Below, one piece after another: positions 2,593 through 44,256 of a stretch of 63,442 bases of DNA. Within the stretch, counting starts at the first letter, position 1. Every line of letters starts with the position of its first letter. Origin of the DNA: a virus; IMG/VR virus record IMGVR_UViG_3300044641_000353, positions 1-63,442 of that record. One strand, 5' to 3'. A program made the translations under genes and the position numbers. The notes beneath the pieces were generated by a model. That model did no database searches, had not been told where the DNA came from, and saw only the letters and a program-made list of their open reading frames with translations.

Positions 2593-3440
2593 GAAACTGC
2601 GACCCTAATCTGACCATCACGATAAGCATCTGCGCGTTGCTTACCATCACCCAAGTTCTTGAGGAGCGCCATAGCTTGTACATACCGCTCTTGGTACACC
2701 TTGTACATACCGTCTTCCGGCGCGCTCTTCATGTATGTTCCTGCTTCAGACAGAGTGCCATACAGCAACGCAGAGTCAAAATTATCACCCAGCCATGTGG
2801 TCAATGCGGTAACAATAGATTCTGGATAGTAGTAATAATGCAGTTCTGCGTAGTAGTTGGCATTTGGCGTAGGGCCAAGAATGAACGACAGTTCATTAAC
2901 GTTAGCTGACTGTGGGCCAAAAATGGCGTAGTGCTTAGGCTCAGACTGCTGTGCACTCAAAGGATATGCTTCACGGACAAAATTTACATCTTTGTTTAGC
3001 AGGTACAAATAGTCGCCTTGAAAAGTGACCGTGGTATTGACTGTACCGCTGTTAGCTACAGTTAAAGAGATTGTAGTTCCACTAATAGCGCGAACAACGG
3101 CGTTAGTGCCAATGTTTGTGCCCGTAACTTGTTGGCCTACAGCAATACCCGTTGTACTTGTTACAACAATACTTTTTGCGCCAGCCGTGCCAGTAGCAGT
3201 TGTAGAGTTAAACGGATATATAGCAAGGCTATATGTTGACAAAAAGTCTTCTGGGCAAGCCAAGTACTTGTTGCCGGTTGACAATACACCCGTCACGTTC
3301 TTACGCAAGTTGGCAATCTGCACCGTGTTATAGATGCGTTGCTCCGCCTGCTTAATCAGCGTGTTGATAGTTGTGGTATCAAACGTGTTCTGCGTATAGT
3401 CAACTACCGCAGCAACAAGTTGGGCGTATGTCATTGCCAT
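2589..3440 (-). CDS. Head-to-tail adaptor-like protein
   Basis: 283 aa. The N-terminus (TYAQLVAAVVDYTQN followed by INTLIKQAEQRIYNTV) and the C-terminal helices (GTLSEAGTYMKSAPED then YQERYVQAMALLKNLG) match the general pattern of podoviral adaptors, which are two helical ends clamping a beta domain. The middle carries an inserted Thr/Val-rich beta module of about 70 residues. It lies two genes away from a second adaptor-like product (4292-5227), as in phages with stacked adaptor rings. The family call is by architecture, and no single catalytic or binding residue can be named. Confidence 0.6.
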   Translation of the reverse strand: MAMTYAQLVAAVVDYTQNTFDTTTINTLIKQAEQRIYNTVQIANLRKNVTGVLSTGNKYLACPEDFLSTYSLAIYPFNSTTATGTAGAKSIVVTSTTGIAVGQQVTGTNIGTNAVVRAISGTTISLTVANSGTVNTTVTFQGDYLYLLNKDVNFVREAYPLSAQQSEPKHYAIFGPQSANVNELSFILGPTPNANYYAELHYYYYPESIVTALTTWLGDNFDSALLYGTLSEAGTYMKSAPEDGMYKVYQERYVQAMALLKNLGDGKQRADAYRDGQIRVAVS

Positions 3441-3443
3441 AAT

Positions 3444-3707
3444 TTAAGCCATTGGCCCCCGAGCCATCAAACCTTTAGTAGCCGCGCCTGTACCGCGAAC
3501 CTTGATACCAGACGTTTTAGTTGCTGGTTGTGCACGGCGAGAGATGTTGCCTACAGACATATTGACTGTATTTGCATCACTGTGGTCAGGGCCAGAGCCG
3601 GGGTTGTCAGAAGCTTTAACAGCTTTACCAGACATCGTGTGTGGTTTGGCATAGACCTTGGCATCGCCAACTTCTTTACCCATTAATTTTTTACTGTATG
3701 TAGCCAT
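3444..3707 (-). CDS. Small basic protein, unknown
   Basis: 87 aa, rich in Lys, Gly, Ala and Thr, including KLMGKEVGDAKVYAKPHTMSG. The family was not recognised. It belongs to a set of short basic proteins scattered through the head-tail block (3444-3898 and 6367-8212), which suggests a nucleic-acid or capsid-lumen association. That role is inferred from charge and context only. Confidence 0.55.
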   Translation of the reverse strand: MATYSKKLMGKEVGDAKVYAKPHTMSGKAVKASDNPGSGPDHSDANTVNMSVGNISRRAQPATKTSGIKVRGTGAATKGLMARGPMA

Positions 3708-32219: not shown

Positions 32220-33601
32220 AACTATCAGAGTATGACTGGCCGCGACCACACGGCTTCACCCCGTTCGATCATCAGAAGACCACCGCTGAGTTTCTAATTA
32301 GCAACCGCAAGAGCTTTTGCTTTAACGAGCAGGGCACAGGCAAGACCGCATCAGTGATTTGGGCGGTGGATTATTTGATGAAAGTTGGAGTAATTAGCCG
32401 AGTGCTTATTGTTTGTCCATTGTCGGTGATGAAGGCCGCATGGCAAGAAGATCTGTTTAAGTTTGCTCTGCATCGCACAGTAGCTGTAGCCCACGGTGGA
32501 AGAGAGAAGCGCAAAGAAATCATTAACGGCCTTGCTGAGTTTGTCATCATTAACTTTGATGGCGTTGAGATCGTTAAGAAAGAAATCATAGCAGGTGGGT
32601 TTGATCTTATTGTGATTGATGAAGCGTCTGCGTACAAGAACGCACAGACCGACAGATGGAGAACCATGCGGGACATTACCAAAGTGGTTAAGGGTCTATG
32701 GATGTTGACGGGTACGCCAGCGGCTCAGTCGCCTGTGGATGCTTACGGATTGGCAAAGCTTGTGAACCCCCAAGGTGTGTCACCTTTCTTTGGTCAGTTC
32801 CGCGACACAGTCATGCACAAGATCAGTGACTATCGTTGGATACCTAAGCCCACTGCGGAAGCAACTGTACACAAGATACTTCAGCCTGCTATTAGGTTTG
32901 AGAAAGCCGACTGCCTTGACTTGCCCGAGGTTACAGCAGTTGACAGAGAAGCTCCGCTTTCGCCACAGCAGATGAAGTACTACAACATACTCAAGAAGCA
33001 GATGTTAATTGAGGCAGCAGGAGAAGAGATTACAGCTATCAACGCCGCAGTAAAGCTCAACAAGCTCTTGCAAATCTCAGGTGGCGCAGTGTATTCAGAC
33101 ACGGGCGAAGTGATTGAGTTTGATGTGTCTGATCGCCTCAAAGTAATTAAGGAAGTGATTGATGAGTCAAGCCACAAGGTGCTCGTGTTTGTTCCGTTCA
33201 CGCACACGATTGAGTTGTTAACCAAATACTTAATTAAGAACGGCATTACATGCGATGTCATTAACGGGGCTGTGTCTGCTAACAGACGCGCAGAGATTGT
33301 CAAAGAGTTTCAGACACGGGATAACCCTAAAGTGCTTGTCATTCAACCGCAAGCGGCATCACACGGGTTAACACTGACTGCGGCTAACACTGTTATTTGG
33401 TACGCTCCCACCTCCAGTGTCGAAACGTATCTGCAAGCAAACGCACGCATCGACAGGCCCGGCCAACGCAATCCAATGACTATCGTACACATACACGGAA
33501 GCCCAACGGAGAAGCGTTTATATGCTTTGTTGCGTAACAACGTAGCGAACCATAACAAAATAATTGATTTGTATAGAGAAGAATTTATAGACGCCTCTTG
33601 A
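32216..33601 (+). CDS. SNF2-type DNA helicase/translocase
   Basis: 461 aa. Motif I is GTGKT at residues 40-44 (FNEQGTGKTASV), and motif II is DEAS at 135-138. Motif III is LTGTPAAQSP. Motifs V-VI are in ANTVIWYAPTSSVETYLQAN followed by RIDRPGQRNPMTIVHI, the Q-x-x-x-R-x-x-R-x-G-Q signature of SNF2 enzymes. Phage members such as those near recombination genes remodel or unwind DNA. It belongs to the R1 unit and ends 3 bp before the R2 promoter begins. Confidence 0.88.
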   Translation: MKLSEYDWPRPHGFTPFDHQKTTAEFLISNRKSFCFNEQGTGKTASVIWAVDYLMKVGVISRVLIVCPLSVMKAAWQEDLFKFALHRTVAVAHGGREKRKEIINGLAEFVIINFDGVEIVKKEIIAGGFDLIVIDEASAYKNAQTDRWRTMRDITKVVKGLWMLTGTPAAQSPVDAYGLAKLVNPQGVSPFFGQFRDTVMHKISDYRWIPKPTAEATVHKILQPAIRFEKADCLDLPEVTAVDREAPLSPQQMKYYNILKKQMLIEAAGEEITAINAAVKLNKLLQISGGAVYSDTGEVIEFDVSDRLKVIKEVIDESSHKVLVFVPFTHTIELLTKYLIKNGITCDVINGAVSANRRAEIVKEFQTRDNPKVLVIQPQAASHGLTLTAANTVIWYAPTSSVETYLQANARIDRPGQRNPMTIVHIHGSPTEKRLYALLRNNVANHNKIIDLYREEFIDAS

Positions 33602-33625
33602 CAATGTCAAAAGTGGTGTTATATT
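33598..33625 (+). promoter_or_regulatory. Replication promoter R2 with palindromic operator
   Basis: TTGACA, 16-bp spacer, TATATT at 33620-33625. The -35 lies in TTGACAATGTCAA (33598-33610), whose centre ACAATGT is the same as in the dispersed repeat. The spacer shares GTGGTGT/GCGGTGT with R1. Predicted +1 is near 33632. Confidence 0.82.
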
Positions 33626-33630
33626 AGAGT

Positions 33631-33725
33631 TGTGTCGCAGTGATGGGTAACGGGTTAGCGCCGTTGCAGACGTTAAATGTTTTGAAACAATCACACTGCT
33701 TTATGTGAACTGTCACTGCGACACA
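33631..33725 (+). ncRNA. Structured 5' leader RNA, cloverleaf-like
   Basis: TGTGTCGCAGTGA (33631-33643) pairs perfectly with TCACTGCGACACA (33713-33725), and three more inner pairs including two wobbles extend it to 33646/33710. Inside are AACGG/CCGTT (33649-33653 with 33661-33665), a possible TGTT/AACA hairpin near 33679-33690, and TCACA/TGTGA (33691-33695 with 33704-33708). It begins at the predicted +1 of R2 and ends 21 bp before the ATG at 33747. It is likely a stabilising or regulatory leader; no known riboswitch was recognised. Confidence 0.65.
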
Positions 33726-33746
33726 TTTAACAATTAGGAGAATCAG

Positions 33747-34169
33747 ATGGAAGAAGTTGAAGATAAAGTCACCTCCGTAGACTTGGACAGATTGACCTCA
33801 ATCTATATCAAGATACGCGACAAGCGGGCGGCAAACAAGAAAGTGTTTGAAGCCGAAGATCAAGACCTCGAAGAGCAGATGAAAGTGTTAGCACAAGAGA
33901 TGCTCGACGTATGCAAAGACATGAATGCCGACAGCATTCGCACCCCACATGGCACGATCATGCGTTCAATTAAGTCACGGTATTGGACAAACGATTGGGA
34001 TTCAATCTACGGTTTCATTGAAGAGACCGGAGCATTTGGCCTGTTAGAGAAAAGACTTCATCAAACAAACATGAAAGACTTTCTCGCTGAGAATCCAGAC
34101 CTTTACCCCAAGGGGCTAAATGTCGAAAGTGAATACACCGTGGTAGTTAGACGTTCTAAAGAAAGCTGA
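33747..34169 (+). CDS. Conserved-type replication-region protein
   Basis: 140 aa, acidic and helical. Blocks are KIRDKRAANKKVFEAEDQDL, LAQEMLDVCKDMNADSIRTP, SIKSRYWTNDWDSIYGFIEE and FLAENPDLYPKGLNVESEYT. I recognise the YWTNDWDS and NPDLxPxGLN pattern from many phages, next to SSB-like genes, but no function is known to me. RBS TTAGGAGAA lies 6 nt before the ATG. It is the first gene of R2. Confidence 0.7.
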   Translation: MEEVEDKVTSVDLDRLTSIYIKIRDKRAANKKVFEAEDQDLEEQMKVLAQEMLDVCKDMNADSIRTPHGTIMRSIKSRYWTNDWDSIYGFIEETGAFGLLEKRLHQTNMKDFLAENPDLYPKGLNVESEYTVVVRRSKES

Positions 34170-34171
34170 AA

Positions 34172-35062
34172 ATGAGTAACATTACAATCCTCAACGAAGA
34201 CCTCCCCGAATTCTTGCAAACCGCAGGAGTTAGCGACCTTACACGACAACTCGCTGGTCGTACCGGAGTCAAACGCATTGTGCCTAAGAATGGCATTTTC
34301 CGTAAGACAGTCGGCGGCGAAGAGATGGGCAAGGTCAAAGGCAACGTGAATGCCGTCATCGTTAACGCATCCCCTGCTGTTGGTCGTATCTTCTACGCTA
34401 AACAGTGGAGCCCTGATGCTGAGCCGACTGCACCTGATTGCTTCTCTAATGATGGGCGCGCACCCGATGCAGGCTCAGCTAACCCACAAGCAGATCGTTG
34501 CGATAGTTGCGGGCAGAATATCAAAGGCTCAGGCCAAGGTAACTCTAAGGCTTGCCGCTATTCACGCCGCATTGCGCTTGTGTTGGAAGAAGACTTCGGT
34601 ACATCACTTGAAGGTTCAGTCTACCAAATGAACTTGGCGTCCAAGTCTTTGTTTGGTGAAAGCGTAGGTGATAACACGCACACGTTTGAAAACTACTCTA
34701 AGTACTTGTCCAACAACGGCAAGAGCTTGGACTACGTTGTGACGCAGATTAGTTTCAACGAAGACAACGACAACCAGTCTGTGTTGTTTACGCCGACTAA
34801 GTACATTAACAAGACACAGTACGCTGTGACTAGCAAAGTGGCTAACACTCCTGAAGTGCTGAAGATGGTAGTTATGACACCATACCAAGCTGACATGTCC
34901 GGCAAGACCGCTAAGTTGGAAGCACCTGCCCCCAAAGCAGAAGCCCCTGCTAAAGTTGATCCAATCGACGAGCCAATCAAGCGCCCCGCTAAGGCCGCGC
35001 CTGCACCTGTGACCAAGAAGGATTTGGATTCCGTGGTGAAGGCTTGGAGTGAAGAGGAGTAA
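34172..35062 (+). CDS. Possible ssDNA-binding protein with zinc site
   Basis: 296 aa. Four cysteines C90, C110, C113 and C128 could form a zinc ribbon (DRCDSCGQNIKG). The N-terminal and central parts are beta-rich. A Pro/Ala/Lys-rich linker (PKAEAPAKVDPIDEPIKRPA) leads to an acidic end (VKAWSEEE), as in SSB proteins whose tails bind partner enzymes. It lies between the leader-controlled gene and the primase-helicase. No other SSB candidate exists in the genome. The role is inferred. Confidence 0.5.
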   Translation: MSNITILNEDLPEFLQTAGVSDLTRQLAGRTGVKRIVPKNGIFRKTVGGEEMGKVKGNVNAVIVNASPAVGRIFYAKQWSPDAEPTAPDCFSNDGRAPDAGSANPQADRCDSCGQNIKGSGQGNSKACRYSRRIALVLEEDFGTSLEGSVYQMNLASKSLFGESVGDNTHTFENYSKYLSNNGKSLDYVVTQISFNEDNDNQSVLFTPTKYINKTQYAVTSKVANTPEVLKMVVMTPYQADMSGKTAKLEAPAPKAEAPAKVDPIDEPIKRPAKAAPAPVTKKDLDSVVKAWSEEE

Positions 35063-35065
35063 CGC

Positions 35066-35314
35066 ATGACCTATGGTTATAGCCAGAGCTTGGTGCACGC
35101 AAATAAAAAAGCAAGCGTCAAGTCTCTGGGTGTGGCCTTGGGTCGTGTATGTATCCGCGAAAACATAAGCGTTAGCAAGATTGCAGATGACTTTGGGGTA
35201 ACCCGAATGACTATCTACAATTGGTTTAAGGGGGACTCAGTCCCCTTTCATTCCTACGATCAAGCGATCAGCGATTACATACTCCACCTTAAAGCCCACC
35301 ACCAACTGAAATAA
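35066..35314 (+). CDS. HTH DNA-binding protein
   Basis: 82 aa. A helix-turn-helix covers SVSKIADDFGVTRMTIYNWF, with the YNWFKG end typical of Cro/CI-like domains. The rest is helical. It lies between the SSB-like gene and the primase-helicase in the replication block. It could regulate R1/R2 or the dispersed repeat, or act in initiation. The target is unknown. Confidence 0.7.
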   Translation: MTYGYSQSLVHANKKASVKSLGVALGRVCIRENISVSKIADDFGVTRMTIYNWFKGDSVPFHSYDQAISDYILHLKAHHQLK

Positions 35315-35318
35315 ATAA

Positions 35319-38159
35319 ATGTCCCACTTTGACCTACTAGATGCAGTACTACCCACAGAGGGTCGGTACTGTGTGTTTGGGCTAGGGAAGTATCCAGATC
35401 AGAAGTTTTACGATACAAGAGCAGAAGTAGATGAGCAAATTGAGACGCTAGTAAGTAACAAGTTCGATGTGTTTTTTGGTTGCGCCAAGTTTGGCCCGCT
35501 CAATAACCGCACACACGAAAACGTTGCCTATGTTCGCGCACTGTGGATGGATATTGATTGCGGCCCCACGAAGGCTGTACCCGATGAAAAGGGAGTTATC
35601 AAAGGTTACATTGACCAAGCCACAGGTCTTGCCGAGTTTAAGAAGTTCTGTAAAAACGTAGGGTTACCACAACCAATTTTAGTTAGTTCAGGCTACGGCA
35701 TCCACGCATACTGGTTGCTAGAAGAGACCATAACTCGCACAGATTGGGAACCCCTTGCAAACCGCCTTCGTGAGTTGTGCGTAGAGCAAGGATTCATTGT
35801 TGACCCTGCTGTATTTGAAGCATCCAGAGTACTGCGTGTCCCCGGCACATACAACTTTAAAGCTGAACCTGTTGAAGTAAAGGTTCTTAACGAAGTCACT
35901 CAGCGTATGACCTACGCACAAGTGAAAGAGCTACTCGGCGCACCGGATGCAGAACCGGAAGACGAGCGGCCAGACTTTATACCGCGCACCATGAGTCCTT
36001 TGATGGAATCGGTGATGCAGAATAAGGTGAAGCGATTTAAAACAATAATGCTGAAATCAGCGCAGGGCGAAGGTTGCAACCAACTGATGCACTGCTACGA
36101 GAATCAAGCCACACTCGACTACAACTTATGGCGCTCAGCGCTTTCGATTGCAACTTTTTGCATCGACCGAGATTCCGCAATACACAAAATGTCTGCGGAG
36201 CATCCCGACTACGACCGGTTTAAGACCGAGTACAAAGTTGATGACCTGCAACGCACGGGTGGGCCGCATCATTGCGCTACCTTTGAGAAGCAGAACCCCA
36301 CGGGTTGCGAAGGGTGTAAACACAAGGGCAAGATCAAATCACCAATCATGCTTGGTGTGGAGATTGAGGAAGCCGAAGACGAAGATTACGATGTTGTAAT
36401 TAAAGCCGAAGACGGTGAGGTTGAGACAGTGCGCATACCTGAGTATCCATTCCCATTCTTCAGGGGTAAAAACGGCGGCATCTACCGCAGACCCGCAACT
36501 GACGAAGCAGAACCAGACCTTGTGTATGAGCACGATCTATACATCATCAAGCGGTTAACAGACCCCGATATTGGGGAGACGTTGCTATTCCGATTGCACC
36601 TACCAAGGGACGGCATGAAGGAGTTTGCAATCCCACTCGGAGTACTTTCATCAAAAGACAAACTGCGGGAAGCACTAGCGTCTAAGGGTGTGGGCTTGTT
36701 TAGTAAGCAAGTCGACCTCATGTGCGTATATGTGATTACAGCGGTTAAAAATTTACAAGTTATGCGGAAGGCAGATATTATGAGAACACAGTTTGGTTGG
36801 GTCGATAACGATAGCAAGTTCATTCTTGGCGATAGAGAGATTACAAAAGATGGTGTGTATTACAGCCCGCCCTCACACATTACCAAGGCGGTAGCCGAGC
36901 ACCTTAACGAACACGGTGACTTTGAGAAGTGGAAAGAAGTCTTCAACATGTACGCGCAGCCCGGCCTTGAGCCCCATGCTTTTGCGGCACTGACGGCCTT
37001 TGGTTCACCACTGTTGAAATTTACAGGTATGTCTGGTGCAATCATCAACTTGATTCACAGTAGCTCAGGCTCGGGTAAGTCGACTGCCTTGTTTATGTGC
37101 AACAGTGTATGGGGTCACCCCGTTAAGAACGCCTCGATCTGGAAGGATACGTTCAACGCAAAGATGCACAGGCTTGGCGTGATGAACAACCTGCCCAACA
37201 CAATCGACGAGATTACGAACACCAGCCCTATGGAGTTCTCTGACCTGTCGTATAGCATCTCTCAGGGTCGAGGCAAGAACAAGATGCGTGGCTCGGTCAA
37301 CGAAGAGCGGGTTAACTTAACTAGCTGGAATGGGATGACCTTAACGTCCTCAAACGCTAGCTTCTACCAAAAGCTTGGTGCGGCAAAAGATTCCCCCGAT
37401 GGTGAGTCCATGCGTCTACTTGAGTATGAGATCAAGCCTAACAACCTGATTGACGTGCAAGTCGGCAAGCAAATGTTTGACCACCAACTGCGGGAGAACT
37501 ACGGGTTTGCCGGTGAGATTTACGCCCAGTGGCTTGTCAACAACTTGGAAGATGCCAAAGACCTAGTGCGCAAGATTCAGGCTAAGCTCGACAAAGAAGT
37601 TAAGTTCACACAGCGTGAGCGTTTCTGGTCAGCCGTAGCCGCCTGTAACATTGCCGGTGGCCTAATCGCTAAGAACCTGCAACTGCACGACTACGACATG
37701 AAGGCCGTGTACGACTGGCTTAAAGGTATGCTCGGCGAGATGCGTGAGGATATTAAGCCCCCAGTCAGCAACCCCGCCTCTACCCTTGGTGAGTTTATCA
37801 ACGGCAACATGAACCACGCTTTGGTTGTAAATGGTGAGAATGACGCACGGAGCAACATGATCCCTATGCCGACTATGGAGCCAAAGGGTGAACTGCTTAT
37901 ACGCTACGAGCCGGATACCAAACTGTTATGGATTGCGGCCAAGTCGTTTAAAGACTTTTGCGTCCAGCGTCAGATTAACTACAAAGATTTACTTAACGAG
38001 CTGAAAGAGGCTAATGTATTTAAAGAAGCAGTCAACAAGCGTATGGCTAAGGGTATGAAGGTTGTGTCTCCCGCAGTGCGTGCCCTGATGTTTGATGCGT
38101 CTCGGTCTGATTTTATTCACATAGATACACCCGATGAAAATCGAGACAGTTCACTATGA
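35319..38159 (+). CDS. Primase-helicase
   Basis: 946 aa. The N-terminal primase-polymerase-like part has ALWMDIDCGP with two acids, LVSSGYGIHAYWLLEE, and ASRVLRVPGTYNFK, as in prim-pol domains. A linker with Cys/His (HHCATFEKQNPTGCEGCKH) may bind zinc. The C-terminal ATPase has the P-loop SSSGSGKST (K587), the Walker B region MNNLPNTIDEIT and downstream motifs in a DUF927-like helicase. It unwinds and primes for the family A polymerase. No separate DnaB- or DnaG-type gene is present. Confidence 0.85.
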   Translation: MSHFDLLDAVLPTEGRYCVFGLGKYPDQKFYDTRAEVDEQIETLVSNKFDVFFGCAKFGPLNNRTHENVAYVRALWMDIDCGPTKAVPDEKGVIKGYIDQATGLAEFKKFCKNVGLPQPILVSSGYGIHAYWLLEETITRTDWEPLANRLRELCVEQGFIVDPAVFEASRVLRVPGTYNFKAEPVEVKVLNEVTQRMTYAQVKELLGAPDAEPEDERPDFIPRTMSPLMESVMQNKVKRFKTIMLKSAQGEGCNQLMHCYENQATLDYNLWRSALSIATFCIDRDSAIHKMSAEHPDYDRFKTEYKVDDLQRTGGPHHCATFEKQNPTGCEGCKHKGKIKSPIMLGVEIEEAEDEDYDVVIKAEDGEVETVRIPEYPFPFFRGKNGGIYRRPATDEAEPDLVYEHDLYIIKRLTDPDIGETLLFRLHLPRDGMKEFAIPLGVLSSKDKLREALASKGVGLFSKQVDLMCVYVITAVKNLQVMRKADIMRTQFGWVDNDSKFILGDREITKDGVYYSPPSHITKAVAEHLNEHGDFEKWKEVFNMYAQPGLEPHAFAALTAFGSPLLKFTGMSGAIINLIHSSSGSGKSTALFMCNSVWGHPVKNASIWKDTFNAKMHRLGVMNNLPNTIDEITNTSPMEFSDLSYSISQGRGKNKMRGSVNEERVNLTSWNGMTLTSSNASFYQKLGAAKDSPDGESMRLLEYEIKPNNLIDVQVGKQMFDHQLRENYGFAGEIYAQWLVNNLEDAKDLVRKIQAKLDKEVKFTQRERFWSAVAACNIAGGLIAKNLQLHDYDMKAVYDWLKGMLGEMREDIKPPVSNPASTLGEFINGNMNHALVVNGENDARSNMIPMPTMEPKGELLIRYEPDTKLLWIAAKSFKDFCVQRQINYKDLLNELKEANVFKEAVNKRMAKGMKVVSPAVRALMFDASRSDFIHIDTPDENRDSSL

Positions 38160-38387: not shown

Positions 38388-38416
38388 ACCCCCGGCTAAT
38401 CCCCGGGGGTTTTTTT
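38388..38416 (+). terminator. Rho-independent terminator at the convergent point
   Basis: ACCCCCGG-CTAATCC-CCGGGGGT, an 8-bp GC-rich stem, with seven T. It ends the plus-strand set. The minus-strand set ends at the same place, where no T tract exists in that direction. Confidence 0.92.
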
Positions 38417-41400
38417 CATTTCGCCGCTTCTTTTTCAAGCTTCTCACGAGAGGGCTCAAGCAACTGCTCCAAGTATGGATAGAACTTCTTGTCCACATCA
38501 AACCCACGATCAGACTTGGCGCGCTTAGCTATACGCGCTTGAACTAATTTGCTTAAGTCACCACCATCAACCCTAGCTTGCGGGTTACGCGCACCGAACG
38601 CAATTAGTTTTTCCAGTGCGTCATCAAACGCTTCGTCATCGCCTCGTGTAGCTTCTAGGTCAACACGATTAACAAGCTTACCTTTCTCAATCACTACTTT
38701 TGCTTTAAGTGCATTGGCTTTAAAGTTAGCTTCTTGCGCGGAAGCCAAACCTGTAGTCCGTGCACCGCCTGCTTGAGCAAGTAATTGCGCTTTTGTGAAC
38801 TCCTCGGGCTCTCTAATAACTGCGCCTGTACTTGTTGTAGCGCCTTCTTGACTATATCGAACAGCAGTCAATGGCTGGCGCAGGGCGGCAGGGAGAAGTC
38901 TTTCCAAGCCTTGCATGGTTTTACCCTCTTGCAGTAGACGGATAGCTGAAGGTATTTGATTTAACGCCAAACTAGCAAACGGCCCCATTAACGACAGCGC
39001 GTATTCTTGCACTGTATCTTCAAGAGCGCGTTGTTCTTTTAACTCAGGCATCCACATGTTGTTCATTGACAAGCTATTGGACATGGCGTAGCCCGAGATA
39101 GTGTCAATTAAACCAGAATCTAGGATGTCACTAATCTTATATCCACCAATCTGGGCTTCACCAAAGAACTCAGGAATAAATACACTGCGACCCCAGAATT
39201 CAAGATCGCGCTCTTCTAACGGGTCTTCATCGTCTTCGTCACGCATTGCATTAATAATACCTTGCACAGCACCCATAGCCGCGCTGATACCGGGGATACC
39301 AACATAACCAGCAAGCAAGCCTGACATAAACAAAGTACCAAAGAACTGAGTAGCCGCTTCTTTCTTAGCCGCCGCATCCATACCGGCCATCATGCGGTAA
39401 GCGTTACGAGCCAAGTATGTGGTTACGAAAGCAGGGAAAGTCTTAAATTGCAGCAGCGTACGACCAAGCGGGCCACGCATGACACGCGCACGATTTTGCT
39501 CAGAGAAGTTACCAAGGGCATCGTAAGTATCTTTAACTGCTTGATCGACAGCGTCGTCGAAAGACATGCCTTCTTTGCGGCTCAAACGGAATGAAGTCAT
39601 AAACATGACTTCGCGGTTTAAACGCTCAACGTGGTGGAACAAACCACCCATCATGTTAGTCGCAGATTTCCATGCGCCAGAGTACTTAGTTGACGGAGTG
39701 TTGCGACGATCCATTAAGTCATAGGCCATCGTGATCTCACTGACACCACGATCTGTCATTGCTTCAATAGCCAGTTGCTCTTCCTCGTTCATCTTAACGC
39801 GACGAGAGTTAGCTAAAGACAACTGCTTAAGGTTTCCATCTTTATCAATAACACCGACGTCGTTAAAGATCAACATCATTTTGCCCATCTCAGCGGCTAC
39901 AGCGGCAGGGCTATGGCGAGACATAAGGACAGGTGCGCCAAATATAGGCAATGAGGAGAACTGAACAACAGCGGTCTTAACCGAAGTCATGAAGTATAGG
40001 AACGCCGACTTGTTTGCAAAGTTAGCCGCACTTTGCGCTACAGAATCTACAGCAGGTGGGTAGACTTCTAACTGAACACGGTTACCAAGTTCATCGACTA
40101 GCATCTCTAGCTTGTCTTTCTCAGGATTGCCCTTGAGACTTTCTTTGGCAGCGTCAACTTCACGAAGCATTGTCGGGCCATATTTCAGACGCGCAAGCTG
40201 GTTAGCCATATTAGTGGATGACGTGATAAAGTTACGCAGCGCGTCACCTGAGAAGCCAGCAGTACCCTTGCGGTGAATAAACTGACGACGGAAACTCTGC
40301 TCCGGCATCGTAGTCAAATACAACTGATAGATTTGATCCTTGAGTGTCTCGGCATCAGTCTCACTAATACCATCACCAATTAGCTCAAAGATTTGTTTAA
40401 GCAGAGGCGCGGTGTCGTTAGTTGTGCTCTTATCGCGCAAGCCCTTTAAATCATTACCGGTTTCAATATCCTCGTCGGCTTTCATCTCAGCCATACTGCG
40501 GGTATCACCGTCTTTTTGCAGATCACGCACTCGCTGACGCATAAACATCTCGCGGTCGACTACGCTTTCAAACATGTAGAACTCTTTCTTCTTACCAGAG
40601 CCCACACGCAACCAGTAATCACCATAGCGCATCAATGGGAAGTATGGAGACAGACCCTTTGCTGTCTCGTACATCTTCTTAATCTCAGCCATTAACTTAC
40701 CCTTGGGTGTGTCGGGGTCGGCGGCATCACCGGGGATCTTCATTGCGTCAATGCGGTTGTTTAACAGCAAGCGGTACAAGTCAAAGTTAGACTTGTAGTA
40801 ATCACGTACATCAACGTAGATTTCCTTGGCCTTATCGCTCAGGCCATCCCACATCTTGTTAAGCGTAGCGTCTTTTCTATTTGTAGCAGGGTCAATGCTC
40901 TTGTCTGTGGCGTAGTGCATCACAGCAGATAGCTCAGCAAGTTCATTCTTTTGGCCCTTGACTAGCTTGCCGTACATACCGGGCTGGACGTTTAACCATT
41001 TGGTTACTACATCTGAAGCACCACCAAGCATCTTCATGCGCATAGCACCCATGTCTTGCATAGCACGCCATGTTTTATCCATGTGCGTAATACCAAGGTT
41101 AGTGCCCCACTCAACTAAAACGTTAGTCTGGATAGCAGGCATCAGCGCTTTTAACTTAACAACGTTGAGCGCACTCCACATAGACTCAAGGGTATCTAAG
41201 AAAATCTGCGGGTCGCGTAGCTTAACCATTGTGTCAATGCCGTCGACTACCTCTTGCGCTTCCTTGCTGCGCAGGATTTTCTTTTCAGCAGCGGTAATCT
41301 TTTTAGCGTTGGCTTTGGCCTTAGCTTTAGCCGCAGAAACTTTCTCACCACGGCCTTCACGGATTGCGTTAGCTTTGTCAGCCTTGGCAATCATCTTCAT

Positions 41401-44256
41401 TGTTGGTGTTAGCTTAGCCGTCAGAATCTCATCAGTAACAAGAATTAAGTCAGACAGGGCGTTGATGGAGTCGAGCCCCATGCCAAGTAATTCACGGATT
41501 GCGTCTACAAAACGGTTAAACAGACCTGTGTCTTCTTCAAAACCATAAGCCCCCATCAGGAACTTCTGGAAGTAGGGGTCGGTCATGCCATAGGAAACAA
41601 ACTCGTGCGGGTTGCTAAACACACCAGACACGGTCTTTAGGTAGTAAATATCTGTGGGCAGCTCGCCCAAGTTAGACAGTCGGTTGTATTCATCCTTTGC
41701 GTTGTTCATCACGTCGATGAGCTTGTTGTACGCACGAGTTAGTTTGGCATCACCTGAAAACCCACGTTGAACGGCGAGGAGAGCAAGCTCAAGCTTTTGC
41801 TGCGTTGCAGCATGAAGTAACTCGTGCAGTACTGTGGTGTTATTAATACCTTGGAAGTCACCTGCGCTAGAGCCGCGCACGTAGATAATCTTTTCACCAG
41901 TAGTTGTGTTCTCAAAATACACACCACGGGCACGGGAGTTGTCATTGCCCCAAGCCTCTTGATGGCGAGACAGTTGTTCTGGTAGGGGGTCGGTCTCTTC
42001 AACTACAACAAATTTAACGCCGTTGACCAGCCCACGAAGGCGTTTGGCCAAGAATTTTTGCATGCCAGTTCCTGTTTTAACAACTTGATTAACGGCCTGC
42101 GCAGCGTTCTTAGCTTTCTTAAACCCTTCGTCTGCGGCTTCGACTTCTTCGTTACTTGCAGAGCTTTTGTTTACGCGCTCTTGAGATTTGTACTTGCGTC
42201 CAGCCTGCACATCGTCGTAGTCTCTTTGAGAAATCTTTGTGCGATCAGCAAGTGCGGCTTTAACCCGTTTACCCAAAGCAGTGCCACGGTGCTTAGTTTC
42301 CAAGTCCATCATTGCGTTGATGGTGTCTCGTTTAAGCGCACGCTTCTCGTCTTGGGCAGAAGATAACTCTAGGTCGTCGGCAAACTTAGTTTCGTCAACA
42401 GGTTTGGCGGCTTCTTCTAACTGGGTTTGGAGCTTGGGTAAAGCACGCTCGCCCTTCATGTACTCAGCACGGCCTTCGGTACGGGCTTTCTCTTTCTCCG
42501 CACGCTTTTCTTCAGTGATGTCAGCCTTTGGCCGACCACGTTGTTTGCCGGTTACTGCTCCGGCTGCTGGTGCTTCTTGTCCTTCTTCTTTTGTTTGGAC
42601 GGCTTCAGGGGTCTCAGTGCCAAGTTCGGCTCCTTTAGTTTCTACGGGGGTTTTTACGGGGGTTGGCTCTACTGCAACGGGTTCAACTCTTTCTCTTTCA
42701 ACAGGCTCTGTAACATCCGCTCTAGCAGGAACCACTCCATCTCGTTCAGCTTCTCCAACTCCTGTGGTGGCGGGAACGTTGTCGGCTGGTTGTGCAAGTA
42801 CCGCAGGGCTCTCTCTACCTGCTTCACTGATAGGTTCTGTAACATCTTTTGCTCCCTCTTCAATAGGCGCATTTGCTTCCTCAATCTCGTTACGCGCTAG
42901 TGTAGCGGCGTCTTCGGGCATGTAGCCCCGCTTCTTGTATTTTGCTACAAGTGCTTCAAGCTCTGGGGAGGGCGCAGGTTGTACCTCTGGAGTTACTTCC
43001 GTAGGAGCAGCTTCCGATACCACCGTAGGGGGCGCAGGTTGTACCTCTGCCGCAGGTTGTTCTTCTACCGCAGGCTTCATGCGTTTGGCTAGGGCATCTT
43101 TAAGTGCTTGGCGCTTGTCAACTGGGGCTGTCGGGGCTAAGGGAGTTTCTTCTTCTACCGTCCATGGGTCTAAAGTAGGTTCAATCTTTTCTGCGGTTGG
43201 TTTTGGTTCTTCTCTACGACGCCCTTTAACGGCTGTAGCACCAACGCCCATAGTTGCACCCGTTACAAGGCCCATACCAGCCGCTTCAGGAACACCTTCT
43301 AAAATAGGCTTATCTAAAGCGTAGTTTGCCCACATCTGTTCTTGCGCAGACTGCGGCATCTCTTCAAATACACCTTCGGTTACACCAGCGGCAGTAGCAC
43401 GCACGGCAAAATCTTTAACCGACTTTGAACCACCACCTGTAGTTGCTTTACTAGCCAGTAGCGTGTCAATATCATCAATGCCTAATTTATTGGCTAACCT
43501 ACCACCAGCCACACCAAATGCCGCCGTACCAGCACCGGAACCAACGGCAGATAAAGCTTGTTTGCCAGTTAATAATTTGTCTTCGGTTTGTTGGCGTGTT
43601 TGCTCAGCAGCACTACCAGCACCAATTAAACCTTCACCCGCAGCGGCGGCTAAATATGGGGAAACTTTTGGCGCGGCTTTTAAAACCCCTCTAGCAATAC
43701 CTGCTCCGCCAAGCATTGGTGCTATTGATTCGCCAACCGTTGTAGCAATAGTGCTGGGGTATTGAAGGGCTTTGCCAATGGTTGGTAAGAAACCTTTTGT
43801 TTCTTTTACTTGGCGATTTGCGTATTGTTGTGCCTCAGACAAATACGTATCAAGTATTTCTTTGGCTTCGTTAGGTTTGTAACCCGCTTGCTCAAGAAGT
43901 TTACCAACACGGCCAAGCGTGGGAATGTCAGCTAAACCAACAAAAGCTTCAGGTAAACCAATAGCACTTTTAAGAAAAGTAATACCGGCATCGAGGGTTG
44001 TACCGCCAATAGTTCTGTCGTAACCCTTTGCTTCCCTTGCCGCAACTTGAGCACGGTACTCATCCGCAGTCATGGAGTTAGGATTACGCACCGGATTTGT
44101 GCCTACAAAACGCTCCATCTGCTGGGGCGTCATTTGTTGCGTAGGGGCAACGGCAGGGGCGGGGGCAATAGGAGTTTCAGACGCGACTTCCCAGCCAGAA
44201 CTATCGGCTGCACCGACTGGAGTTTCGGAAACAACCGACCATTCGTCTTTTGCCAT
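38416..44256 (-). CDS. Giant virion protein with metallopeptidase motif
   Basis: 1946 aa, with ATG at 44256. Residues about 1-340 include hydrophobic, membrane-active-looking helices (PFLGGAGIARGVLKAAPKVS-like). Residues about 340-620 are Pro/Glu/Ala-rich and low complexity. A zinc-peptidase motif HELLH is at 811-815, and NPHEFVSYGMTDPYFQKF with H884/E885 follows, the usual downstream acid site. The remaining 1000 residues are helical and include hydrophobic segments. Length, modular form and place next to the other giant gene suit an ejected internal protein that breaches the host envelope. The peptidase could process virion or host proteins. Confidence 0.65.
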   Translation of the reverse strand: MAKDEWSVVSETPVGAADSSGWEVASETPIAPAPAVAPTQQMTPQQMERFVGTNPVRNPNSMTADEYRAQVAAREAKGYDRTIGGTTLDAGITFLKSAIGLPEAFVGLADIPTLGRVGKLLEQAGYKPNEAKEILDTYLSEAQQYANRQVKETKGFLPTIGKALQYPSTIATTVGESIAPMLGGAGIARGVLKAAPKVSPYLAAAAGEGLIGAGSAAEQTRQQTEDKLLTGKQALSAVGSGAGTAAFGVAGGRLANKLGIDDIDTLLASKATTGGGSKSVKDFAVRATAAGVTEGVFEEMPQSAQEQMWANYALDKPILEGVPEAAGMGLVTGATMGVGATAVKGRRREEPKPTAEKIEPTLDPWTVEEETPLAPTAPVDKRQALKDALAKRMKPAVEEQPAAEVQPAPPTVVSEAAPTEVTPEVQPAPSPELEALVAKYKKRGYMPEDAATLARNEIEEANAPIEEGAKDVTEPISEAGRESPAVLAQPADNVPATTGVGEAERDGVVPARADVTEPVERERVEPVAVEPTPVKTPVETKGAELGTETPEAVQTKEEGQEAPAAGAVTGKQRGRPKADITEEKRAEKEKARTEGRAEYMKGERALPKLQTQLEEAAKPVDETKFADDLELSSAQDEKRALKRDTINAMMDLETKHRGTALGKRVKAALADRTKISQRDYDDVQAGRKYKSQERVNKSSASNEEVEAADEGFKKAKNAAQAVNQVVKTGTGMQKFLAKRLRGLVNGVKFVVVEETDPLPEQLSRHQEAWGNDNSRARGVYFENTTTGEKIIYVRGSSAGDFQGINNTTVLHELLHAATQQKLELALLAVQRGFSGDAKLTRAYNKLIDVMNNAKDEYNRLSNLGELPTDIYYLKTVSGVFSNPHEFVSYGMTDPYFQKFLMGAYGFEEDTGLFNRFVDAIRELLGMGLDSINALSDLILVTDEILTAKLTPTMKMIAKADKANAIREGRGEKVSAAKAKAKANAKKITAAEKKILRSKEAQEVVDGIDTMVKLRDPQIFLDTLESMWSALNVVKLKALMPAIQTNVLVEWGTNLGITHMDKTWRAMQDMGAMRMKMLGGASDVVTKWLNVQPGMYGKLVKGQKNELAELSAVMHYATDKSIDPATNRKDATLNKMWDGLSDKAKEIYVDVRDYYKSNFDLYRLLLNNRIDAMKIPGDAADPDTPKGKLMAEIKKMYETAKGLSPYFPLMRYGDYWLRVGSGKKKEFYMFESVVDREMFMRQRVRDLQKDGDTRSMAEMKADEDIETGNDLKGLRDKSTTNDTAPLLKQIFELIGDGISETDAETLKDQIYQLYLTTMPEQSFRRQFIHRKGTAGFSGDALRNFITSSTNMANQLARLKYGPTMLREVDAAKESLKGNPEKDKLEMLVDELGNRVQLEVYPPAVDSVAQSAANFANKSAFLYFMTSVKTAVVQFSSLPIFGAPVLMSRHSPAAVAAEMGKMMLIFNDVGVIDKDGNLKQLSLANSRRVKMNEEEQLAIEAMTDRGVSEITMAYDLMDRRNTPSTKYSGAWKSATNMMGGLFHHVERLNREVMFMTSFRLSRKEGMSFDDAVDQAVKDTYDALGNFSEQNRARVMRGPLGRTLLQFKTFPAFVTTYLARNAYRMMAGMDAAAKKEAATQFFGTLFMSGLLAGYVGIPGISAAMGAVQGIINAMRDEDDEDPLEERDLEFWGRSVFIPEFFGEAQIGGYKISDILDSGLIDTISGYAMSNSLSMNNMWMPELKEQRALEDTVQEYALSLMGPFASLALNQIPSAIRLLQEGKTMQGLERLLPAALRQPLTAVRYSQEGATTSTGAVIREPEEFTKAQLLAQAGGARTTGLASAQEANFKANALKAKVVIEKGKLVNRVDLEATRGDDEAFDDALEKLIAFGARNPQARVDGGDLSKLVQARIAKRAKSDRGFDVDKKFYPYLEQLLEPSREKLEKEAAK

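Follow-up and report, generated by a model that had tools for sequence, protein, structure and literature searches.

A cloverleaf RNA family of freshwater phages, with comparative support for a loop–loop contact and several genomic contexts

Related RNAs and the leader in the window

Structured phage leader RNAs and loop–loop RNAs are already known as kinds. According to primary papers cited in PMC3997798, E. coli mRNAs are stabilised by 5'-terminal stem-loops, and pairing of the 5' end slows RNase E-dependent decay. The pRNA of phage phi29 forms intermolecular loop pairs over 4 bp (PMC7357161), while the phage-associated RNAs ROOL and GOLLD form RNA-only oligomers (PMC12286853).

The RNA described here is a four-armed cloverleaf in the window, the whole stretch of 63,442 nucleotides that was analysed (IMG/VR virus record IMGVR_UViG_3300044641_000353). 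Like the E. coli ompA and papA leaders, it has a stable helix at or next to the transcription start (+1) and leaves the ribosome-binding site free, whereas those leaders are simple hairpins with neither a conserved loop–loop core nor reuse beside tRNAs or in non-coding RNAs (ncRNAs). With phi29 pRNA it shares its phage origin, a helical junction and two loops complementary over 4 nt. However, pRNA pairs between molecules and serves DNA packaging, whereas the cloverleaf lies in an mRNA leader and matched no Rfam pRNA family. Purine and guanidine-II riboswitches are likewise leader RNAs with a loop–loop contact, but the cloverleaf has no conserved ligand-pocket junction and no expression platform, and its third arm is hypervariable. 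GOLLD and ROOL are also phage-associated, near tRNA genes and rich in loop–loop contacts, but they are hundreds of nucleotides long, and neither the cloverleaf nor the tested RNAs that carry it matched Rfam. Finally, tRNA has four arms, with the loops of the second and fourth touching; the cloverleaf differs in its P1 of mostly 9–20 bp, its 3-bp P4 and its lack of an anticodon. The leader is composed of the following elements, all on the + strand:

33598–33625: sigma-70-type promoter TTGACA-16-TATATT (11/12, TG ahead of the -10), its -10 ending 5 nt before P1; predicted +1 at about 33631
33631–33646: P1 5' strand from the predicted +1 on, with 13 perfect bp and three further pairs on the inner side
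33647–33667: P2 hairpin, 7 bp, with the 7-nt loop GUUAGCG at 33654–33660
33657–33660: AGCG, P2-loop half of the proposed loop–loop helix, from A-U/G-C counts across copies
33668–33693: P3 segment, weakly folded, its sequence and length both hypervariable
33694–33707: P4 hairpin CAC-UGCUUUAU-GUG, stem covarying
33697–33700: UGCU, P4-loop half of the proposed loop–loop helix, from pattern scans and covariation
33710–33725: P1 3' strand, from complementarity, fold and covariation
33736–33740: Shine-Dalgarno (SD) sequence AGGAG, outside the cloverleaf, 10 nt after P1 and ahead of the ATG at 33747

The P1 arms (33631–33643 and 33713–33725) are 13 nt each, 100% complementary and 69 nt apart, which confirms the perfect closing stem of the preliminary description, and P1 extends inward by three pairs (U.G, G.U and G-C) up to 33646/33710. 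The arm sequence TGTGTCGCAGTGA has no second occurrence in the window at two or fewer mismatches, and the virus record holds exactly one copy of the cloverleaf. Folding of the enclosed RNA yields -41 kcal/mol, whereas shuffled versions average -24.3 (z -5.9) and none of 200 does as well. The promoter agrees with the start of the element at the predicted +1, as had been described. As to the internal hairpins claimed at the same time, P2 is clear and P4 is present, while the possible third one, P3, is weak. The minimum-free-energy fold of the window prefers a slipped 5-bp UCACA/UGUGA helix over the 3-bp P4, CAC/GUG, which is the evolutionarily supported form, with its loop UGCUUUAU. No terminator was found in the window's leader.

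Four co-directional genes, separated by gaps of 2–4 nt, follow on the + strand:

33747–34169: first operon gene, 140 aa, assigned to phrog_13900, doubtfully named 'minor head protein'
34172–35062: 296-aa protein, described earlier as SSB-like, without a Pfam match and in PHROG families of unknown function
35066–35314: small helix-turn-helix (HTH) protein, from Pfam/PHROGs searches
35319–38159: DUF927 primase/helicase, 946 aa, from Pfam/PHROGs searches

The PHROGs name of the first gene looks wrong, as the gene stands first in the replication operon across distant phages. A 1946-aa open frame on the - strand (38416–44256), probably encoding a large virion protein, is convergent with the end of this operon.

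Covariation of the stems and of the loop–loop contact

Relatives of the 33747 gene were taken from IMG/VR, and their leaders have the layout of the window with different stem sequences. Covariation, the check that the preliminary description had proposed, was measured in 23 diverse copies in the window's register and came out decisively in favour of the stem, with compensatory double changes at 15/15 P1 pairs; P2 has them at 5/7. In this set 92.8% of the cells are paired, compared with 27–45% when the partners are slid, and no shuffle reached the covariation score. The same picture emerged from 109 model matches, with 771 double-change cells, and the copies from bacterial genomes, an independent set, have 90.4% of their cells paired. 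The P4 stem also covaries (CGC/GCG, CAU/AUG and, in a tandem copy, CCC/GGG), and the loop-closing pairs of P2, GG/CC, are constant among the model matches. Given that G.U far outnumbers A.C in the stem columns (186 to 28 overall, and 55 to 2 in the window's register), the sense-strand RNA appears to be the functional form, and this asymmetry argues against a DNA hairpin element. On these comparative grounds, the four-armed cloverleaf is a real RNA structure, whose pairing has been kept by matching changes in well over a hundred relatives.

The loops of P2, GUU(A)GCG, and P4, UGC(U)UYAU, are complementary to each other and nearly invariant across copies. The first clue to a contact came from two bacterial copies, in which the P2 loop has GGCG for AGCG and the P4 loop UGCC for UGCU. 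A prediction was set before scanning: copies with GGGTTGGCGCC should have ACTGCC, and copies with GGGTTAGCGCC and a base other than T there should not be real. The scan covered 2.9 million viral contigs with that position left free. Of seven G-type matches, six were model matches, all with C, and the seventh (L326) failed the model; the search for A-type copies without T returned a single sequence (L331), which is not a model match. None of the apparent exceptions (L326, L330 and L331) is a model match, and the predicted rule held in the fresh scans. Changes of the contact other than A-U to G-C were discarded as well, as the lone match with an altered G in AGCG was not an element. The contact consists of four pairs, in order A-U, G-C, C-G and G.U; the first was A-U in 29 copies, G-C in 7 and broken in 0, this being the one of the four that varies, in a sample where the search pattern fixed the loops of most viral copies. 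The comparative data thus show the P2–P4 tertiary contact from one covarying pair.

This complementarity might instead operate between molecules, forming dimers or rings as in phi29 pRNA, since here too one RNA has two different loops whose sequences match up over 4 nt; any two copies could pair because the loop sequences are common to nearly all of them. However, the 3-bp P4 together with the 4-bp contact would match the 7-bp length of P2, which fits an internal side-by-side packing, and an mRNA leader is an odd site for assembly. With the pRNA families of Rfam also giving no match, we consider an intermolecular role improbable.

Distribution and genomic contexts

The family is defined by two covariance models, R1 and R2. 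The window copy, with its P1/P2/P4 fold and covarying loop contact, scores 86.4 bits in the family model; almost all confirmed copies exceed 30 bits, with one at 21, and with filters off no element-free distant phage locus rises above 19.9 bits. Rfam 15, searched at the gathering cutoffs and at E<=5, gave no match to the element, a chance snoRNA match falling outside it, and searches of the longer ncRNA context and neighbouring DNA returned only tRNAs in the neighbouring DNA. ARAGORN detected no tRNA or tmRNA in the window, nor did the Rfam tRNA model match; together these searches bear out the earlier remark that no known riboswitch, tRNA or tmRNA pattern is recognisable. BLASTN found no match of the leader in cultured phages, or of the locus segment L180:8700–9500 in cultured phages and plasmids, and we found no open-access paper giving the loop sequences as an RNA element. 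The RNA family is new, in that it is absent from Rfam 15.

The pattern of the two constant loops matched at least 120 stretches, and the covariance model placed the element on many IMG/VR contigs, some with two copies, and rarely in Burkholderiales chromosomes. The hosts of the freshwater phages with the element are probably betaproteobacterial. Among 84,980 species genomes scanned with the pattern, six had it, Curvibacter, Achromobacter dolens and Variovorax among them. By model search, it occurs in 6 of 401 genomes of the Curvibacter family and one further genome in the order sample, and the phylum sample had none but the centre genome itself. Contig 12 of Achromobacter dolens (67705–67905; L312/L314) carries a tandem pair, the second copy of which has CG/CG as P2 closing pairs and CCC/GGG in P4, matched changes around the same loops.

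A promoter with its -10 ending mostly 5–7 nt before P1 accompanies 73 of 174 distinct filtered copies compared with 17 of 3345 control windows, a statistic that owes most to a single gene and its leaders in related phages. In most of these copies the first paired base lies 6–8 nt after the -10, and about half of all copies are not at a recognised +1. Leaders of the 33747-gene homologs account for 66 distinct copies at +1, and a Cro-like HTH gene follows three copies that have a promoter; two unrelated gene families therefore have the element at +1. At four loci (L198, L238, L262 and L281) tRNA genes lie directly 3' of it. Elsewhere it lies inserted in a non-coding stretch of about 400–600 nt behind a promoter, and this stretch also occurs without it (L288 and L298). 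Conserved between freshwater phages, the stretch of several hundred nucleotides resembles a large ornate ncRNA that may carry or lack the cloverleaf; the tested larger RNAs carrying the element had no match in Rfam. With predicted promoters as the guide, the genomic data show both the +1 position of the leader copies and reuse of the RNA in several contexts. Because the same RNA is found beside tRNA genes and inside the larger ncRNA, its role is not confined to replication genes.

Several details of these neighbourhoods were recorded. The tRNAs after the element are Met, Tyr and an odd call with the four-base anticodon CATC. Large ncRNA carriers are L180 (- strand, 1820–2400), L229 (3100–3740), L193 (- strand, 3110–3650), L259 (9430–10040), L169 (480–950) and L271 (6100–6560); the large ncRNA starts with a pseudoknot-like A-B-A'-B' arrangement, GTAGGAG..AGGCCGTTTA..CTCCTAC..TAAACGGCCTTTTTT, and long conserved blocks follow. 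The mutually complementary flanks CAGTCCCCAGCCGTGTTGG and CCAACACGCATGGGGATTG recur in either order (L170, L172, L175, L179, L187, L219, L227 and L265), which would suit a series of structured RNAs placed one after another. Intrinsic terminators follow 3 of 14 bacterial and 1 of 160 viral copies. One Burkholderiales chromosome (G086) has three copies (L315, L320 and L322), each with an intrinsic terminator immediately after it, and we propose that they are independent small-RNA genes or 3' ends.

Among close relatives, 10 of 81 leaders lack the cloverleaf, and some of these are bare and short; two (L126 and L132) have lost it and kept a small hairpin at +1. Presence or absence is clean, between promoter and ribosome-binding site. 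Two further 60-kb relatives have no copy, and in the distant cultured phages Rollin, RHph_TM3_14A and Effie the gene neighbourhood is kept and the RNA absent (3/3). The preliminary description held that the RNA controls, and could tune, the replication genes; it does lead their operon, but control or tuning is only a candidate role, given that these 10 of 81 relatives and three cultured phages do without it.

Such clean presence or absence, together with the many unrelated sites, the two copies on some contigs, the optional place in a larger RNA and the sporadic occurrence in bacteria (the 6 of 401 in the Curvibacter family), could be accounted for by an insertion, of DNA or RNA, that is mobile or spreads by recombination and has no function for the host gene. 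Against this stand the strong purifying selection on pairing and loops, the strand-specific tolerance of G.U and the stable position that 66 distinct copies keep ahead of one gene; moreover, neither an encoded protein nor a target-site duplication was seen. A functionless insert thus seems of low probability.

The third arm and possible roles

Where two leaders precede genes of at least 97% identity, the upstream DNA is 93% and P1 92% identical, and P3 only 70%. P3 recurrently contains the anti-SD-like CUCCU, GGACGAAA or GUUUUGAAA, far above shuffles, with counts that are inflated by shared ancestry, and the window's own P3 is without CUCC. CUCCU is strongly enriched in P3 of leader and non-leader copies alike. 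Pairing of P3 with the SD region was rejected as a general cis mechanism: good single pairs exist (L112 and L105), but in 114 of 200 swaps the exchanged P3s paired with the leaders' SD regions at least as well as the own P3s did. In the window, P3 and the linker share a 9-nt complement (GTTAAATGT/ACATTTAAC), to which this rejection also applies.

A multi-helix junction with a loop–loop contact in a 5' leader is reminiscent of the purine and guanidine-II riboswitches, and the element could be a ligand-sensing riboswitch or an attenuator of the replication operon. However, its conservation sits in the loops, with junctions and P3 varying, so that we found neither conserved junction or aptamer nucleotides nor an expression platform; the window has neither a terminator, which led us to reject attenuation, nor an SD-sequestering alternative, and the same RNA occurs outside leaders. 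Because a conserved junction pocket, a terminator and a specific P3–SD pairing are all lacking, we regard sensing or attenuation as very improbable.

The same three absences, together with a first paired base at the expected transcription start and a ribosome-binding site outside the structure, favour protection of the 5' end. We suggest, with a probability of roughly 0.4, that the cloverleaf is a plug-in module which in this leader caps and stabilises the 5' end of the replication mRNA in cis. The paired 5' end at +1, which is predicted and not mapped, is in keeping with a 5'-terminal mRNA stabiliser. The cloverleaf would fold as soon as it is transcribed, burying the mRNA 5' end in a helix of 13–16 bp that is locked by the loop–loop contact, with the hypervariable P3 held between P2 and P4. 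The buried end would hinder 5'-end-dependent decay (the RppH/RNase E pathway), and with the ribosome-binding site kept in the open linker downstream, the replication mRNA would last longer. In other contexts the module would give stability or insulation to the RNAs that carry it.

Since about half of the copies lie off a recognised +1, the element must do more than cap. In addition, several close relatives have short, structure-free leaders, a plain hairpin would suffice for protection, and the near-invariant loops and hypervariable P3 suggest something more. As capping leaves these loops and P3 unexplained, we hold it at the stated probability and keep the alternatives. The element may act by binding or in trans, its constant scaffold holding out the variable P3 arm to an RNA or a protein as target, whether as a leader, an excised RNA or an independent small RNA. 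A hypervariable arm on a constant scaffold fits this proposal, as do the motifs that recur in P3 (CUCCU, GGACGAAA and GUUUUGAAA) in leaders and elsewhere and the copies beside tRNA genes, before terminators and within the ncRNA. The swapped P3s that equal the own SD pairing, the absence of CUCC from the window's P3 and the ancestry behind the motif counts weigh against it, and we judge it unlikely. In a tentative and somewhat doubtful version, the leaders, tRNA clusters and large ncRNA might all use a constant kissing-loop scaffold with an exchangeable P3 finger to bind one shared factor, of host or phage, so that the element would be no mere stabiliser.

This RNA family is well defined, has a testable tertiary contact and is spread over many freshwater phages that are uncultivated; it can be studied in the named isolates Curvibacter sp. 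CHRR-16, Achromobacter dolens and Variovorax sp. A nearly unchanging scaffold, a rapidly evolving arm and use in multiple contexts make an uncommon combination, which suggests that phages have here a general RNA part.
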